A stretch of DNA of 29,231 nucleotides, taken from the IMG/VR virus record IMGVR_UViG_3300048034_001033, positions 1 through 29,231 of that record; one strand, given 5' to 3'. Each line of letters starts with the position of its first letter. Position 1 is the stretch's first letter. This DNA is from a virus. The position numbers and the translations under genes are program-made. This document shows positions 6,526 to 26,016 of this stretch, one piece after another. A model generated the notes under the pieces. It worked only from the letters and a program-made list of their open reading frames with translations, did no database searches and was not told the DNA's origin.

Positions 6526-7592
6526 TGTATCATTTCGTAACATCATCCAAAGATTCAACAATTTATTTACAACAACCAAGTCAAAACACTGGATTGGATG
6601 AGATAATTGAGGTATCTAAAACTTTCTATGGTAATCTTAAAGATAATGCAAGAGCATTAATAAAATTTGATACTACTCCATTATCACAATCAATTGCTAG
6701 TGGAGATATCACAATGAGTTCTGCTCATTTATTATTAAAAGAATCTGATGCAAATGAGATTCCTATGGATTACACAATTTATGCATATCCTATATCACAA
6801 TCATGGGATATGGGTATTGGAACACGATTTGATGATATATCAACCGATGGTGTAAGTTGGGAAAACAGAGGAACATCCACAGAAAGTTGGTTAGGAGATG
6901 GTGGATATGCGAGTGGTACGAGTGGTTCTTTTAACGGAAAGGGTGGTACATGGTACACTGGTTCGGTTGGTTCACAAGATTTTTCATATCAATCGAGTGA
7001 TATAGAAATGAATGTACTCAGTTCAATGAATAGTTGGATTGGTGGTACACTACCAAATGAAGGATTTATAGTAAAACATTCAGATGCAAAAGAAGCAGAT
7101 ACAGTTGATTATGGAGAATTAAAATTCTTCGGTAAAGAAACTGCAACAATATACCAACCTAAAATTAGAATTGGTTGGGATGATTCGGTATTTACAACAG
7201 GTTCATTAACAGAATTAACTTCTGAAGAAATTAATGTAACGTTCAAAAGATTAAAAGTAAGATATAAGGTAGGGAGTACACCAATGATTAGAGTTTTTGG
7301 TAGAGAAAAGTATCCTCTTAAAACCTATACAAATACATACGCTTATAATGATTTATATTATTTACCATCTACAACATATTATCAAATAAAAGATATCGTA
7401 ACAGGTGATGTAATAATACCATTCAATGATAACTATACAAAAGTTAGTTGTGATGCCAATGGTAATTATTTTAAATTAGATTTATCTAACTTTGAATATA
7501 ATAGAGATTACTATATTGAAATAAAAACAATAAGAAGTGGTGTAGTAGAATATTTTAGTGATAAAGATTTAACATTTACCGTAGAGAAATAA
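6525..7592 (+). CDS. DNRLRE-like virion structural protein
   Basis: The product is 355 residues. The first 230 resemble the DNRLRE fold of beta-sandwich surface and fibre proteins: an opening with SKDSTIYLQQP, a strand pattern ARALIKFDTTPLSQ, the AYPISQSWDMGIGTRFDD turn, and GVSWENRG. A glycine- and serine-rich loop lies at about 120-150 (GYASGTSGSFNGKGGTWYTG). The last 120 residues look like one or two beta domains (LKVRYKVGSTPMIRVFGREK). It overlaps the gp6 stop and is followed two bases later by the next gene. In T4-like phages the genes after gp6 code for further wedge and fibre-attachment proteins, so a baseplate-periphery role is inferred. Confidence 0.7.
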   Translation: MYHFVTSSKDSTIYLQQPSQNTGLDEIIEVSKTFYGNLKDNARALIKFDTTPLSQSIASGDITMSSAHLLLKESDANEIPMDYTIYAYPISQSWDMGIGTRFDDISTDGVSWENRGTSTESWLGDGGYASGTSGSFNGKGGTWYTGSVGSQDFSYQSSDIEMNVLSSMNSWIGGTLPNEGFIVKHSDAKEADTVDYGELKFFGKETATIYQPKIRIGWDDSVFTTGSLTELTSEEINVTFKRLKVRYKVGSTPMIRVFGREKYPLKTYTNTYAYNDLYYLPSTTYYQIKDIVTGDVIIPFNDNYTKVSCDANGNYFKLDLSNFEYNRDYYIEIKTIRSGVVEYFSDKDLTFTVEK

Positions 7593-18846: not shown

Positions 18847-18871
18847 AACCCCACCACGAGTGGGGTTTTTT
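18847..18871 (+). terminator. Strong Rho-independent terminator ending the 16890-18802 unit
   Basis: A perfect eight-base stem, AACCCCAC/GTGGGGTT, has a five-base CACGA loop and six T residues (18866-18871). It ends only ten bases before the glycosyltransferase ATG. Its 3' arm is identical to those at 696 and 1148. Confidence 0.92.
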
Positions 18872-18881
18872 GTTGTTACCC

Positions 18882-19475
18882 ATGAGTTATAAAATAAAAG
18901 TATTATCATTAAAAAGAAGAAACGATAGAAGAGAACTCTTTGATTCAAGATTTTCTGATTTTCAATATGAATATTTTTATGGATTGGATGGTAAAAATTA
19001 CACCTTATCTGAATACGATACTAATTGGATTGATGGTAACATATATGCTCATTATAAAATACACATACCATCATTAGTATGTGCAAATAAATCACATATC
19101 TTAATGTTAAAACAATGTATATCAGATAATATCCCTTACATTATATTTGAAGATGATACTGAAATAATAAAACCTATTGATTTTAAATTTGAAGATATCG
19201 TAAAAAAAGATTTGGATGTGTTTTGGTTAATGCCTAAACAATCATCTATACTTTGTTATGTAGTTTGGCCTGCAGGAGCTAAAAAGCTAATAAAATGTGT
19301 AGATAAAAAAGGTGGATTAATAAAAGGACTGGATGATATGTGGCATATTATAAAAGATACTGGTTATCTAAGAGAAGAAAGTTTGAGTGATGAATACTTT
19401 ACTCAACGAATGGGAGCTCCTGATTCTGATATAACTTCTTTGTTAGATTATCAAATATCCAAAGAACTTCTATGA
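18882..19475 (+). CDS. Glycosyltransferase family 25-like protein
   Basis: The product is 197 residues. I place the start at the ATG 18882 (MSYKIKVLSLKRRNDRREL). An upstream in-frame TTG at 18870 is inside the terminator T run and is unlikely. GT25 features appear in order: the first strand with LKRRNDRR (10-17), a KSHILMLKQCI segment at 70-80 equivalent to the family's SH helix, the acidic IIFEDD motif at 87-92, and VVWPAGAKKLI at 127-137. LDDMW at 150-154 occupies the place of the family's second acidic motif. GT25 enzymes add hexoses to lipopolysaccharide or protein. Which glycan is modified here is unknown. The gene sits between two tail gene units, seems to lack its own promoter and has no Shine-Dalgarno, so expression would depend on readthrough. 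Confidence 0.78.
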   Translation: MSYKIKVLSLKRRNDRRELFDSRFSDFQYEYFYGLDGKNYTLSEYDTNWIDGNIYAHYKIHIPSLVCANKSHILMLKQCISDNIPYIIFEDDTEIIKPIDFKFEDIVKKDLDVFWLMPKQSSILCYVVWPAGAKKLIKCVDKKGGLIKGLDDMWHIIKDTGYLREESLSDEYFTQRMGAPDSDITSLLDYQISKELL

Positions 19476-20875: not shown

Positions 20876-21448
20876 TTGGGTTTATATATTAACTCGAAGG
20901 ATAAATGGGCATATGTTCATATTCCTAAAACAGGTGGTACAAGTATTTCTCAGGTATTAAGAGTTCAACCAAATACTACTAATCCTGCCGGTCACGATTC
21001 TCTAAGAATATTAGAGTATAACATGATGGAATATTTTAAATTTACTTTTGTGAGAAATCCATTCACAAGAATAGCATCAGCATACTTTCATGAAACTAGA
21101 AAAACACAACATATGAGTTTTGAGCATTTTTTAAAAAATGCAAATGCATATGATTTGTGGTTTTTGAACCAATCATACTACACACATCAGATAGATTCCA
21201 ATGATAAAGAAATGACCTTTATTGGTAGATATGAAAACTTTAAAGAAGATACTGATTATGTTTTTAATAAATTAAATATAAAAGAAGATATTCCTCATAT
21301 AAACCGTAATCCAATTTACGAAAAACACCCTAACTTAAATCAACATAAATACTACAAATATTTGTATTCTGAAGAGTGGATGAAAGAGTGGGTTAGAGAG
21401 AGGTATTATAATGATTTCAAGATTTTTAACTATGGGATGGACATATAA
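20876..21448 (+). CDS. Sulfotransferase family protein (PAPS-dependent type)
   Basis: The product is 190 residues if translation begins at the TTG 20876; an in-frame stop at 20870 leaves no room for an upstream ATG. The 5'-phosphosulfate loop is clear at 13-23 (YVHIPKTGGTS, with K18 as the expected PAPS contact). FVRNPFTRIASAYF (58-71) is the 3'-phosphate binding segment with R60 and S68. AGHDSLRIL (38-46) has a His in the place where carbohydrate sulfotransferases of this type carry one. Family members move sulfate from PAPS to hydroxyl groups, usually on carbohydrate. In a phage the target could be a host glycan or virion protein glycan. Its start is unusual: no ATG before the PAPS loop and no Shine-Dalgarno. 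It overlaps the next gene by 38 bases. Confidence 0.85.
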   Translation: MGLYINSKDKWAYVHIPKTGGTSISQVLRVQPNTTNPAGHDSLRILEYNMMEYFKFTFVRNPFTRIASAYFHETRKTQHMSFEHFLKNANAYDLWFLNQSYYTHQIDSNDKEMTFIGRYENFKEDTDYVFNKLNIKEDIPHINRNPIYEKHPNLNQHKYYKYLYSEEWMKEWVRERYYNDFKIFNYGMDI

Positions 21449-21878
21449 AGGAAAATGTATAACAGAGATATCAGATATGCCAGAAGGTACTATCGGATTC
21501 ATATACAAAATAACCAACGGAGAAACTGGTCAATATTATATTGGGAAAAAATCCCTATATTCACACAGAACATTACCGCCATTAAAAGGTTATAAACGAA
21601 AAAGAAAAGTAGTAAAAGAATCTAAGTGGTTAGATTATCGTTCATCAAATGCTTCAGTACAACTTTGGTTTCATTCAAACGAGATGGCACTACAAGAAGA
21701 ACCGAGGGGAGAGATAAACGATACACTAAAGTTAGAAATACTTAGATTTTGTAAAGGAAAGAAAGCTTTAACCTATTATGAACTACAAGAACAGTTCTCA
21801 CACAACGTATTAGGAGATGAGTTATCTCTAAATGATAACCTATTAGGAAAGTTTTTTAGAAAAGACTTGGAAAATTAA
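21411..21878 (+). CDS. GIY-YIG-like putative endonuclease
   Basis: The product is 155 residues from the ATG 21411, which has AGAGAGG seven bases upstream. An in-frame ATG at 21432 (MGWTYKGK) is the alternative and lacks such a site. The first strand pair is GFIYKITN (29-36, with FIY in the GIY position) and QYYIGKKSL (41-49, containing YIG). A basic segment follows (PPLKGYKRKRKVVKESKW, 56-73). A Glu-rich helix near 91-97 may carry the catalytic glutamate. GIY-YIG domains in T4-like phages are often homing endonucleases, and this gene lies beside an accessory sulfotransferase gene. It may equally be a resident phage nuclease of unknown role. A DNA-binding domain is not evident in the last 60 residues. 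Confidence 0.65.
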   Translation: MISRFLTMGWTYKGKCITEISDMPEGTIGFIYKITNGETGQYYIGKKSLYSHRTLPPLKGYKRKRKVVKESKWLDYRSSNASVQLWFHSNEMALQEEPRGEINDTLKLEILRFCKGKKALTYYELQEQFSHNVLGDELSLNDNLLGKFFRKDLEN

Positions 21879-21916: not shown

Positions 21917-22861
21917 ATGCTCTCACATCACGAGAAACAAGAAGTTATAAACATATTAAATGATGTATTGGGTGTTGGTACACCAATGAAAAATGATGAA
22001 CAAGCACATCATTGTCCATTCTGTCACCACCACAAGAAAAAGTTACAGGTTAACTTAAAAACACAATATTGGCATTGTTGGGTATGTGATGCAAAAGGAA
22101 GAAAGATACAGAGGTTATTAAAAAGACTTCATGTAGATGCTCGTAGATTAAAAAAGTTATTTGAAATCTATGGAGATGATTATATAGTTTACTCAAAAGA
22201 TACTGAAGAAGAAAAAGTAGAGTTACGATTACCAATTGAATTTAAATCACTTCTAAAAGTACCAGAGGGTAAAGTAAATCCTGTGTACAGAAAGGCTCTT
22301 AAGTATGCTGAAGATAGAGGTATTACTAAAGAAGATATTACAAAGTACAATATCGGTTATTGTGATGGTGGTATGTATTCCAATCGTATTATCATTCCTT
22401 CCTATGATTTGGACAATAGACTCAATTACTTCATCGCAAGGTCTGTACATCCTGAGGAAAAGTTTAAATATAAAAATCCACCAGTTTCGAAGAATGTTAT
22501 CATGTTTGAAAATCAAATAAATTGGAATGAACCAATAACATTAGTAGAAGGTGTATTTGATGCAATGGCTGTTAAGAGAAATTCTATTCCAATTTTAGGT
22601 AAATTTATTCCTACTAAATTAAATGAAGCTATTTATAAAAACGAAGTAAAAAGTATTAACATCTTATTAGATGAAGATGCTCAACAACAAGCATTGCGTT
22701 ATACTATGCAATTCCAAAATCAAGGAATCACTACAAAAAATATTAAACCCACAGATAAAGATGCATCTGATATGGGATTCATAGAAGTAAATAATAAATT
22801 AAAAGAATCCAAGCAAACAGGATTCGGTGATATTATATCACAAAAATTAAAAGGTTTATGA
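21917..22861 (+). CDS. DNA primase, DnaG/T4 gp61-type
   Basis: The product is 314 residues, close to T4 gp61 (342). A zinc-binding domain opens the protein, with C33-P-F-C36 and C54-W-V-C57 as the four ligands. The TOPRIM domain follows: ITLVEGVFDAMAVK (207-220, E211 as the metal-binding glutamate) and ILLDEDAQQQA (248-258, D252 and D254). RIIIPSYD and FIARSVHPEEKFKYKNP lie between, in the family order. It makes RNA primers for lagging-strand synthesis; no helicase gene is in the window. The gene overlaps the SbcD-SbcC gene by four bases (ATGA), so the two are coupled. A host-type promoter precedes it, as expected of an early or middle gene. Confidence 0.92.
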   Translation: MLSHHEKQEVINILNDVLGVGTPMKNDEQAHHCPFCHHHKKKLQVNLKTQYWHCWVCDAKGRKIQRLLKRLHVDARRLKKLFEIYGDDYIVYSKDTEEEKVELRLPIEFKSLLKVPEGKVNPVYRKALKYAEDRGITKEDITKYNIGYCDGGMYSNRIIIPSYDLDNRLNYFIARSVHPEEKFKYKNPPVSKNVIMFENQINWNEPITLVEGVFDAMAVKRNSIPILGKFIPTKLNEAIYKNEVKSINILLDEDAQQQALRYTMQFQNQGITTKNIKPTDKDASDMGFIEVNNKLKESKQTGFGDIISQKLKGL

Positions 22862-25800
22862 TAATAAATAAGGTTTACCACCTTGCAGATTTACACATTA
22901 GAAATCTACAAAGGCACAAAGAATATAGAATAGTATTCAAAAAATTCCTAAAAAAAGTTAAAGAAGATAAAATTGAGGATTCCCTCATTTATATTGCAGG
23001 TGATATTGCTCATGCTAAAACTGAGATGTCACCCGAACTTGTACACGAAATAAGTTGGTTTCTCACCGAGTGTGCAAAGTTAAGAGAAACTGTGTTAATC
23101 ACAGGTAACCACGATTGTAATTTAAATAATTCCCACAGACTTGATGTACTCACACCTATTATCGAAAATCTTGGAAATGATAGAATTCATTATCTTCGTG
23201 ATACTGGTGTTTACCCTATTCACAATCTTACTTTTGTTGTCTATTCTATATTGGATAACAAGGAAAATTGGCCTAAAGGAAATACCGTTGATGGAGAAAA
23301 TACAATCTGTCTTTTTCATGGACCAGTAAACAAAGCTCAAACAGATATTGGCTATACCGTTTCCTCTAACTCATTCCAAGTGGATATGTTCGATGGATTC
23401 GATATGGCTATGTTGGGTGATATCCACAAACGACAAACTTTCGGAGAAGGTTACGAACATATTGCTTATGCTGGTTCTATGGTTCAACAGAATCATGGGG
23501 AGTTGCTAGAAAATCATGGTTACTTACTTTGGGATATTCCTACAAGAACTTTCACAGAACATCACTTACATAATGATTATGGATTTCTTACAATTGATGT
23601 GGTTAATGGTAAGATACCTCAATGGGTATATGATGAAATTGATACTAAACTACCAAGGTATCCACGATTGAGATTAAGGTTTACAAAGACAGAAGCTTCT
23701 GATATGAAAAGAAGAATAACTGAATTAAAGAAGTTATTCAAAGTTGCTGAAGTTACTGTAACAAGAACCGATACAATCGGACAATTAAAAACAAATCAAA
23801 AAGTAAACAAAAATATTGTTGGTGATGTTAAGAATGAAACATTCCAAAACCAACTAATCAGAGATTACTTAGAAAGACAATATCTTTTAGAAGATGAAGA
23901 GTTAGATAAGATAGCAGAAATAAACTCAGAATTGAATTCACATATAGATGAATCAGATATGATGGGTAACATTTTATGGACACCTAAAGAGTTTCAGTTT
24001 TCTAATATGTTCTCTTATGGTGAGGATAATAAAGTAAGGTTTGATAAAGCACAAGGTATCGTTGGTATCTTTGCTCCAAATGCTTCTGGTAAATCCTCTC
24101 TGTTCGATGCATTATCTTTTTGTATCTACGATAAGACTTCTCGTACAAACATCTCTAAAAACATCATTAATAATCGTAAGACAAACTTCTATTGTAAGTT
24201 TAACTTCGAGATAGATGGTATCAATTACTATATTGAAAGAAGAGCCAAATATGTTAGAAAAGCAACATCGGTAAAAGTAGATGTAGATTTTTGGAGAGAT
24301 AACAACGGAGTTATTGAATCACTTAATGGTGAACAACGAAAAGATACTAATAAGGAGATAGAGAAGTATTTGGGTAAATTCGAAGATTTTGTTCTAACTG
24401 CACTATCCTTACAAGGAAACAATGCACTCTTTATAGATAAATCACAAAGTGAAAGAAAAGAAATACTTTCCCAATTTATTGGAGTCAACATCTTTGATAA
24501 ACTCCATCAGAAAGCATCTGATGAGAACCGAGATAATGCAACACTTATCAGAAAATTTAAGAGTGATGATTTTACCACAAAATTAGCGGGAATCGACACT
24601 GATTTAAAATCAAATAAAAACGAGTATAAACTTTATGAGATGAATCAAAAATCTCTTAAAGATGAGGAAGATGTTTTAAATAAAAAGATTATATCTCTAA
24701 ATGAGAAGGTTGTAAAATTAAACGCAGATAGTGGTGTAGCTATTGAAGAACTTGAAAAAAGATTTAAATTACTCGAAACCAAACGAGATACAATCCAATC
24801 GGATAAAAAATCTACACAAGATAGAATTACCCATAGAGAAGAATTACAAATCACTTTAGATGAAATCGTTGATAAATTTGATGAAGAAGAATTAGAAGAT
24901 GGTATTGGTAAATTAAAAGATTCGAAGGATAAACTAAGAGATATTGAATCTACAATTGATAAAATCAATATTAAAAAAGATTCTTTATATGAAAGAAAAG
25001 ACCACTTAGATAAACACAAATATAATGAAGAGTGTGATATTTGTATGGAAAACTCTGAAACTATTCTACAACAAAAAGAAAAGGTAGAAGCCGATATATC
25101 TCATTATCAAGAGTTATTTACAGATAATGATAAGACACGATTGCAATTGATGTTGGTGATTGATTCTTTAAAAGGATATGCTGATGAGTGGAATAACTAT
25201 TTAGATGCAAAAGATAAAGAAGATAAAATTGATAGAGAGATATCACAACTTATCAACAAGTTATCAACAATTGAAACTGAAGAATTACGAAATAAACAAC
25301 AAATTAGTCAACAGGACCAACTTATAAAGGAATATTATAAGAATGAAAAGCAGATTATAAAGAATAAAGAGATACGAACTGAAATACAATCGGTTAGAGA
25401 AAAACTGAATGTTACTAAAGATGATTTAAGAAAAGTAAATACAGAAGTTCTTAAATTAAATGGTAAAGTATCGGCATTACAGAACCAAAAGGAAACTATT
25501 GAAGATAGAATCAACGAGGTTAAAGAAATGGAAACTCAGAGTAGGTTATTTGATTTCTACTTAAATGCTCTTTCTAAAGATGGTGTTTCTTATGAATTAA
25601 TTGAAAAGGCATTACCAATGATTGAAGGAGAGGTAAACAATATCTTGGCTCAAATCGTTGAATTTGGAATGCAACTTGAAATGGATGGTAAAAACATTAA
25701 TGCGTATTTAGTGTATGGAGACCAGAGATGGAGTTTAGAAATGTGTAGTGGAATGGAAAGATTCATTAGTGGATTGGCAATTCGAGTTGCACTTATAAAT

Positions 25801-26016
25801 GTATGTAACCTTCCTAGACCTAATTTCCTCGTTATAGATGAAGGATTTGGTACTTTAGATAGTGAGAACTTACAATCTTTATTTATGTTGTTTACATACC
25901 TTAAAACTCAATTTGATTTCGTAATGATTATCTCACACATAGATTCTATGAGAGATGTAGTAGATGACTTGATTACAATTAAAAAAGAAAAAGGATTCTC
26001 AAACGTTAAGTTTTAG
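22858..26016 (+). CDS. SbcD-SbcC (gp47-gp46) recombination nuclease/ATPase fusion
   Basis: One 1052-residue frame carries both subunits of the Mre11-Rad50 complex. The SbcD/gp47 part (about 1-345) has metallophosphoesterase motifs D11-L-H13, G48-D49, G83-N84-H85-D86, H154 and G187-D188-I189-H190; the last is GDxH where GHxH is more usual. The SbcC/gp46 part (about 370-1052) has the Walker A loop APNASGKSS at 406-414, a coiled coil from about 570 to 900, a zinc hook CDIC at 726-729, the SGMERFISG signature from S964, and the Walker B LVIDEG with D994-E995, then a SHID switch motif near the end. In T4 these are separate genes needed for recombination-dependent replication and host DNA breakdown. 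It overlaps the primase by four bases. No internal stop or frameshift was seen. Confidence 0.93.
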   Translation: MIINKVYHLADLHIRNLQRHKEYRIVFKKFLKKVKEDKIEDSLIYIAGDIAHAKTEMSPELVHEISWFLTECAKLRETVLITGNHDCNLNNSHRLDVLTPIIENLGNDRIHYLRDTGVYPIHNLTFVVYSILDNKENWPKGNTVDGENTICLFHGPVNKAQTDIGYTVSSNSFQVDMFDGFDMAMLGDIHKRQTFGEGYEHIAYAGSMVQQNHGELLENHGYLLWDIPTRTFTEHHLHNDYGFLTIDVVNGKIPQWVYDEIDTKLPRYPRLRLRFTKTEASDMKRRITELKKLFKVAEVTVTRTDTIGQLKTNQKVNKNIVGDVKNETFQNQLIRDYLERQYLLEDEELDKIAEINSELNSHIDESDMMGNILWTPKEFQFSNMFSYGEDNKVRFDKAQGIVGIFAPNASGKSSLFDALSFCIYDKTSRTNISKNIINNRKTNFYCKFNFEIDGINYYIERRAKYVRKATSVKVDVDFWRDNNGVIESLNGEQRKDTNKEIEKYLGKFEDFVLTALSLQGNNALFIDKSQSERKEILSQFIGVNIFDKLHQKASDENRDNATLIRKFKSDDFTTKLAGIDTDLKSNKNEYKLYEMNQKSLKDEEDVLNKKIISLNEKVVKLNADSGVAIEELEKRFKLLETKRDTIQSDKKSTQDRITHREELQITLDEIVDKFDEEELEDGIGKLKDSKDKLRDIESTIDKINIKKDSLYERKDHLDKHKYNEECDICMENSETILQQKEKVEADISHYQELFTDNDKTRLQLMLVIDSLKGYADEWNNYLDAKDKEDKIDREISQLINKLSTIETEELRNKQQISQQDQLIKEYYKNEKQIIKNKEIRTEIQSVREKLNVTKDDLRKVNTEVLKLNGKVSALQNQKETIEDRINEVKEMETQSRLFDFYLNALSKDGVSYELIEKALPMIEGEVNNILAQIVEFGMQLEMDGKNINAYLVYGDQRWSLEMCSGMERFISGLAIRVALINVCNLPRPNFLVIDEGFGTLDSENLQSLFMLFTYLKTQFDFVMIISHIDSMRDVVDDLITIKKEKGFSNVKF

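Follow-up and report, generated by a model that had tools for sequence, protein, structure and literature searches.

Gene and protein assignment

The window, which is the whole 29,231-nucleotide stretch analysed here (positions 1 to 29,231 of IMG/VR virus record IMGVR_UViG_3300048034_001033), contains a fused SbcD-SbcC (Mre11-Rad50) gene (Table 1). Its open reading frame begins with an ATG at 22858, overlapping the stop codon of the primase gene that precedes it (22858-22861), comprises 1052 codons with zero internal stops and ends with a stop codon at 26014-26016. In the encoded chain, an Mre11-like phosphoesterase precedes a Rad50-like ATPase. In the Pfam search of the 1052-residue protein, Metallophos (PF00149, residues 5-191, E 1.4e-7) and AAA_23 (residues 382-617, E 3.2e-11) both scored above their cut-offs, and PHROG 77, an SbcC-like subunit, covered residues 280-1051 with an E-value of 1.1e-56. 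When we searched the PDB with phmmer, the C-terminal part matched Rad50/SbcC chains, the best at 9.1e-19 (Rad50 3aux), and the N-terminal part gave only weak matches to Mre11 (0.0078). The cellular cut-offs of NCBIfam were not reached, as the best Rad50/SbcC model scored 70.9 bits against 700 and sbcd 27.6 against 77.65. Since these scores lie far under the rad50, sbcC and sbcD cut-offs, the protein is a distant viral relative and not a cellular equivalog.

A sequence-only reading of the window had described SbcD-type motifs followed by SbcC-type motifs in one frame, and the open reading frame, the Pfam and PHROG matches and the motif positions all bear this out. The same reading had considered a break of the frame between residues 330 and 400. 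No stop lies there, and the frame is maintained in contigs that share 46-100% identity, so raw reads are hardly needed.

Conservation of the fusion in metagenomes

We scanned IMG/VR with the whole chain and took the best 80 of 120 confirmed relatives (46-100% identity). A further whole-chain scan with alignment A1 returned at least 600 stretches, at least 580 of them encoding relatives, and the best 80 were again taken, the weakest at 40% identity. Together these scans gave 159 distinct locus ids, which became 121 loci when those from the same region were merged. Because both scans had used the whole chain, we rescanned IMG/VR with an alignment of the SbcD half and took the best 80 of at least 585 relatives (at least 600 stretches); this set shares some contigs with the 121 merged loci. 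The locus counts given here therefore describe the best-scoring relatives, from 40% identity upward in the whole-chain sets.

All 121 merged loci carry one frame running from residue 150 or earlier to residue 500 or later, through the junction, and in 101 of them the frame matches from residue 10 or earlier to residue 1040 or later. In the SbcD-half set, 74 of the 80 loci continue in frame into the ATPase, and the contigs of the other six end before the junction can be judged. The fused order was retained from 40% to 100% identity, and no split SbcD/SbcC relative was seen among the 121 merged and 80 SbcD-half best-scoring loci. Judged from these sequences, members of this phage group seem normally to carry the fused form. 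The sequence-only reading had raised the possibility of a novel fusion, to be given up if nearly all related phages had it. This is what we found (121/121, and 74/74 judgeable loci of 80), and the fusion is real but not novel. An assembly or sequencing artefact, which no observation favoured, is ruled out by these 121 and 74 loci with one frame through the junction and by the fusions in named phages described below, and we assign it practically no probability.

Among 72,556 plasmid records four matched, none over 80% of the query, and in bacterial and archaeal genomes three contigs of metagenome-assembled genomes (L163-L165) were confirmed out of 48 pattern matches. One of them, L163 (CALBOT010000005.1, from a genome labelled Candidatus Nitrosopelagicus), shows 40% identity over nearly the whole chain and holds a phage-type primase gene; the likely explanation is a contig of phage origin placed in an archaeal bin.

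Active-site motifs of the two halves

The phosphoesterase half contains D11-x-H13, G48-D49, G83-N84-H85-D86, H154 and G187-D188-I189-H190, and the ATPase half contains Walker A at 406-413, Q519, the hook C726-D-I-C729, the signature S964-G965, D994-E995 and H1027. The residue numbers given earlier for the GDIH motif are correct. Canonical Mre11 has His at the position of Asp188, as do E. coli SbcCD and archaeal Mre11-Rad50. Judged from sequence and the predicted structure, the nuclease motifs with their metal ligands and the fold of SbcD/Mre11 are present, the sole departure being Asp for the first His of GHxH. Position 188 was Asp in 121/121 merged loci by alignment and in 80/80 SbcD-half loci, and D11, D49, N84, H154 and H190 showed no substitution in the phage loci aligned at each site in either set. 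A DxQ subgroup with Gln for the metal-ligand His of the first motif includes L205, L215, L216, L219, L221 and others, and also the contig L165 mentioned above.

We asked what the Asp might mean. As a mark of the fusion it is ruled out, since GDLH occurs in a split protein, D12 of the T5-type Salmonella phage SPC35, and GHIH in a fused one, PAU gp288. Asp188 is expected still to bind the active-site metal in place of His, as it never varies here and Asp also stands at this position in a split phage SbcD. Asp188, and Gln13 in the subgroup, might instead shift metal binding, so that the nuclease half would be mainly endonucleolytic or structural and the ATPase half would mainly bridge ends. The uniform Asp188 and the change of H13 to Gln in 9/120 merged and 13/80 SbcD-half loci are consistent with such an alteration, but the remaining metal ligands are retained, the Asp is also found in the split SPC35 D12 and in Mimivirus R555, and Asp is in general able to bind Mn. 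We regard the altered nuclease as unlikely.

In the ATPase half, the Cys pair of the hook was retained in 115/115 aligned loci (6 of the 121 were unaligned there) and E995 in 106/106 (15 unaligned), and K412 was invariant where aligned. The SbcC/Rad50 set of Walker A, Q-loop, signature, Walker B, D-loop, coiled coil and CxxC hook is complete.

Structure model

We built an AlphaFold2 single-chain model of the window protein on 26 aligned sequences, with a mean predicted local distance difference test score (pLDDT) of 72.5 and a predicted template modelling score of 0.38. The model runs in the order phosphoesterase, capping region, two helices, linker, ATPase N-lobe, helical stretch, hook, helical stretch and C-lobe. 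With VIA-align, residues 1-308 aligned to solved SbcD/Mre11 chains with Z-scores of 20-23 in the top 24 rows, and the root-mean-square deviations of the Mre11/SbcD rows were mostly 3.2-4.4 Å, with a few larger (5.8, 8.0). Other phosphoesterases (purple acid phosphatase, GpdQ, Rv0805) reached Z 14-18 over 200-226 residues, and the Mre11/SbcD rows were higher and longer. The top rows of a Foldseek search of the model against the PDB were Mre11-Rad50 complexes.

In the model, a region of capping and helix-loop-helix length and a short linker precede the ATPase, as in most of the Mre11/Rad50 fusions treated in the relevant passages of Yoshida, Claverie and Ogata (2011, PMC3175470). By analogy with that account, the predicted helix-loop-helix is a putative Rad50-binding element, and the linker there was argued to suit the Thermotoga complex, in which a 28 Å gap needs 9-12 residues. 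One fused relative (L061:8001-10991, 60% identity) is without approximately residues 275-327 in frame, that is, part of the capping region and beyond.

The linker, being short and neither helix nor strand in the model, is a possible cutting site, and the polypeptide could be cut after translation into SbcD and SbcC, the fusion ensuring only equal amounts. Against such processing stands the fused order kept over the whole range of identity, and we consider it very improbable.

Table 1. Features of the fused gene and its upstream neighbours in the window (loci as defined in the text).
Feature	Coordinates	Strand	Basis
Fused SbcD-SbcC (Mre11-Rad50) gene	22858..26016	+	Single open frame; Pfam, PHROGs, PDB sequence matches
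SbcD/Mre11 phosphoesterase (Metallophos, residues 5-191)	22870..23430	+	Pfam PF00149; model 1-308 aligns to solved Mre11/SbcD
GDIH motif, residues 187-190, Asp188 replacing the canonical Mre11 His	23416..23427	+	Asp in 121/121 and 80/80 loci
Predicted capping region, about residues 240-303	23575..23766	+	Model secondary structure; alignment to SbcD nuclease and capping domain 7dog; borders approximate
Predicted helix-loop-helix, residues 327-360, at the position of the Rad50-binding helix-loop-helix of Mre11	23836..23937	+	Model helices 327-341 and 346-360
Linker of about 14 residues (361-374) between the halves	23938..23979	+	Neither helix nor strand in model
SbcC/Rad50 ATPase N-lobe (375-541), Walker A 406-413, Q-loop Q519	23980..24480	+	AAA_23 E 3.2e-11; phmmer Rad50 3aux 9.1e-19
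Coiled coil (about 544-719 and 736-905), hook between	24487..25572	+	Long helices in model
Zinc hook CDIC, C726-C729	25033..25044	+	Conserved cysteines
ATPase C-lobe, CSGME (963-967), DEGFGTLD (994-1001)	25690..26013	+	phmmer SbcC 6s6v_C 837-1048; invariant columns
DnaG-type primase-like gene, overlapping the fusion start codon	21917..22861	+	phrog_47 DNA primase E 1.6e-48
SegE-like GIY-YIG endonuclease gene	21411..21878	+	Pfam PF19835 E 2.2e-22

Fused and split forms in named phages

When we searched 50,697 phage records, 887 matched and four covered more than 80% of the query: LR756508, Microcystis phage Mel-JY01 and two Bacillus phage Eldridge records. With the SbcD half alone and E-values up to 10, 117 of these records matched and three covered more than 80% (Mel-JY01 and two 735-kb phage records); among the best 60 of the 117, all except Mel-JY01, the two 735-kb records and LR756508 were at 1e-2 or weaker. 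The Mel-JY01 protein (WWT39521.1, annotated 'AAA domain containing protein') shares 37% identity over the whole chain and also has GIY-YIG and primase-like genes upstream, whereas a small gene separates its primase and fusion genes and its host is Microcystis elabens.

In the 735-kb phage LR756501, a frame of 1202 residues shows Metallophos and, just below its cut-off, AAA_23. Its protein matches 13 records, including the Tenacibaculum phages pT24, PTm1 and PTm5, the Chryseobacterium phages MA9V-1 and MA9V-2 and the Sphingomonas phage PAU; its SbcD half gave eight pattern matches in IMG/VR, of which none was confirmed. In the cultured jumbo phages pT24, PTm1, PAU (gp288) and MA9V-1, a phosphoesterase is likewise followed by a Rad50-like part in one coding sequence, but these proteins are 1301-1326 residues long, with 23-24% identity to the 735-kb phage protein. 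Each gene is annotated only 'metallo-phosphoesterase'. Both halves scored above the Pfam cut-off only in MA9V-1 among the four; pT24 showed the phosphoesterase only, PTm1 the ATPase and a weak zinc hook, and PAU the phosphoesterase and a weak SMC_N. pT24 and PAU match PHROG 35725 end to end, so that a public cluster already covers this fused group, under a name that reflects only part of the protein. SbcC and SbcD have been called practically universal in jumbo phages, in passages that say nothing of a fusion (PMC7824862).

In the 484-kb phage LR756508.1 (L002:6001-10175), the fused gene is broken right after GDIHKRQ by about 0.9 kb, and the second part lies in another frame. The insert holds an open reading frame (6671-7588) with matches to HNH and TnsA-like endonucleases, and Rfam gave two matches over it, both far below the gathering score and neither an intron. 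Either an intron or the splitting of the gene by a homing element could account for the interruption.

SbcD and SbcC are encoded by two genes in T4, SPO1, ZY21, SPC35 and Bacillus phage Eldridge, and the unnamed second gene of ZY21 matches PHROG 77 at 1.8e-129. The pairs T4 gp47/gp46, SPO1 gp21.3/gp21.9 and T5-type D12/D13 are phage SbcD/SbcC like the window protein but remain separate genes, and in SPO1 and Eldridge a primase gene lies downstream of the pair. E. coli SbcCD and archaeal Mre11-Rad50 share the fold and motifs, whereas their subunits are separate. We calculated a tree of 18 rows, 13 fused and 5 split pairs, with LR756508 and the cellular, giant-virus and Bacillus phage 0305phi8-36 rows left out. 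All fused rows fell on one side of a branch with support 100/100, across from the T4, SPO1 and T5-type pairs, and the tree has long branches (T4 with SPC35). Given the choice of rows, these long branches and the fusions of PMC3175470, reported there as not monophyletic, the tree does not show a single origin of fusions.

Genomic context

In the window, baseplate genes are followed by the GIY-YIG endonuclease gene, the primase-like gene and the fusion. We judged the upstream context in 95 of the 121 merged loci, those whose sequence extends more than 2.5 kb upstream of the fusion. Every one of the 95 has a primase gene upstream on the same strand; in 70 of them it is within 1 kb, and the distance never exceeds 4.2 kb. 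A GIY-YIG gene is found upstream in 58/95. A sulfotransferase-family gene (20876-21448) and a glycosyltransferase family 25 gene (18870-19475) also lie downstream of the baseplate genes in the window, and a sulfotransferase relative was present upstream of the fusion in 39/95 loci.

Ten long records (190-484 kb), eight of them from IMG/VR and without a completeness estimate shown, were searched whole. Each has a single long SbcC match, which is the fusion gene (interrupted in LR756508), and a RecA gene was found in 10/10. The main role of the enzyme might be host-DNA degradation or resistance to host nucleases and not phage replication, as the T4 record states that both recombination and host-DNA degradation require gp46/gp47. 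The upstream primase in every judged locus and the RecA genes fit replication and recombination better, and we think a mainly host-directed role improbable.

Proposed function

We propose that the gene encodes a DNA-end-processing enzyme that works as a homodimer of fused chains, equivalent to M2R2, and feeds recombination-dependent replication and repair, and we give this reading a probability of about 0.82. Our analysis shows directly that the two halves are fused and conserved with their motifs, that the nuclease part has the SbcD/Mre11 fold, that a primase gene lies upstream and that related genomes have RecA; from these we infer the dimer, its activity and its role. Contacts between two fused chains would be made by their ATPase heads, Mre11 parts and zinc hooks. 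Given the order of nuclease, capping region, helix-loop-helix, short linker and ATPase, each nuclease would sit on the ATPase head of its own chain, at the base of its own coiled coil, held by the helix-loop-helix. The heads would close on ATP while the zinc hook joins the coiled coils, and ATP-gated opening would let the nuclease trim DNA ends or open hairpins. The processed ends may then feed RecA-mediated invasion and primase-dependent or restarted synthesis. T4 gp46/gp47 are described as acting in this way, and the functional passages of PMC3175470 propose a similar role for R555. The fixed 1:1 stoichiometry suggested in the sequence-only reading follows from the single chain, and the tethering of nuclease to ATPase may matter for activity.

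Here, we need to consider several observations that weigh against this proposal. First, the model does not establish how the nuclease packs on the ATPase, because its pLDDT is below 50 over stretches containing GNHD, Walker A, the Q-loop and much of the C-lobe. Second, the Asp replacing His at 188 could mean altered catalysis, and so could the Gln at H13 counted above. Finally, 7/10 long records hold short separate metallophosphoesterases above the Pfam cut-off, and 4/10 have further short, weak SbcC matches.

Relation to Mimivirus R555 and aquatic phages

It has been known since 2011 that Mimivirus R555 is a fusion of an N-terminal Mre11-like and a C-terminal Rad50-like part, with Asp242 at the position of P. 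furiosus Mre11 His206 (Yoshida, Claverie and Ogata, PMC3175470). The passages concerned list twelve other Mre11/Rad50 fusions, including that of Bacillus phage 0305phi8-36, and report 249 marine GOS relatives of R555 and 288 BIOME reads (267 from viral fractions), many of them probably from phages. Phage primases were among the genes on scaffolds with these aquatic relatives, and confirmation of the fusion as such was confined to a few long environmental sequences. The order of the halves, the His206 to Asp change and the abundant aquatic relatives were thus published by then, so neither the fusion nor the Asp of GDIH is novel; the suspicion in the sequence-only reading of a known variant in aquatic phage lineages was right. 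Among the matches listed, no further open-licence PMC paper names the fusion in its title or the start of its abstract.

The window protein resembles R555 in the order of Mre11 and Rad50 within one chain and in the Asp at the His206 position. This trait of the R555-like subfamily is present as D188 in the window and in 121/121 loci, and is not exclusive to it (split SPC35 D12). On the other hand, the window protein belongs to a tailed phage and has 1052 residues, against 1351 in R555 and 1379 in Tupanvirus. The five best matches of its model in BFVD were all giant-virus proteins, Tupanvirus first with 26% identity over 1320 columns; Tupanvirus, Harvfovirus, Yasminevirus and Catovirus are the relatives to be named with R555. 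Their length and alignment suggest that these proteins are fusions, and they fit the same wider group as R555. The GOS and BIOME sequences described in PMC3175470 are likewise aquatic, probably from phages and accompanied by primases on their scaffolds, with the fusion seen in a few long ones, but were known then as fragments. They very probably belong to the same family as the window protein. A lineage of large aquatic phages might keep the primase-linked fusion as its standard end-processing enzyme and have passed it, together with the Asp variant, to mimivirus-like giant viruses, an idea that we put forward tentatively and consider rather doubtful.

Based on these observations, the gene is real and strongly conserved, and its kind, residue change and habitat are already published. 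The window and its relatives fit the gap left in PMC3175470, where few long environmental fusions are reported as confirmed, and they mainly confirm on long phage contigs what shorter environmental sequences suggested in 2011. Labels such as 'AAA domain containing protein' and 'metallo-phosphoesterase' hide a common fused enzyme, and many phages seem to use the fusion as their main or only copy. Because stoichiometry and pairing are fixed, this single-chain Mre11-Rad50 of moderate size would be a convenient model for ATP-gated end processing.

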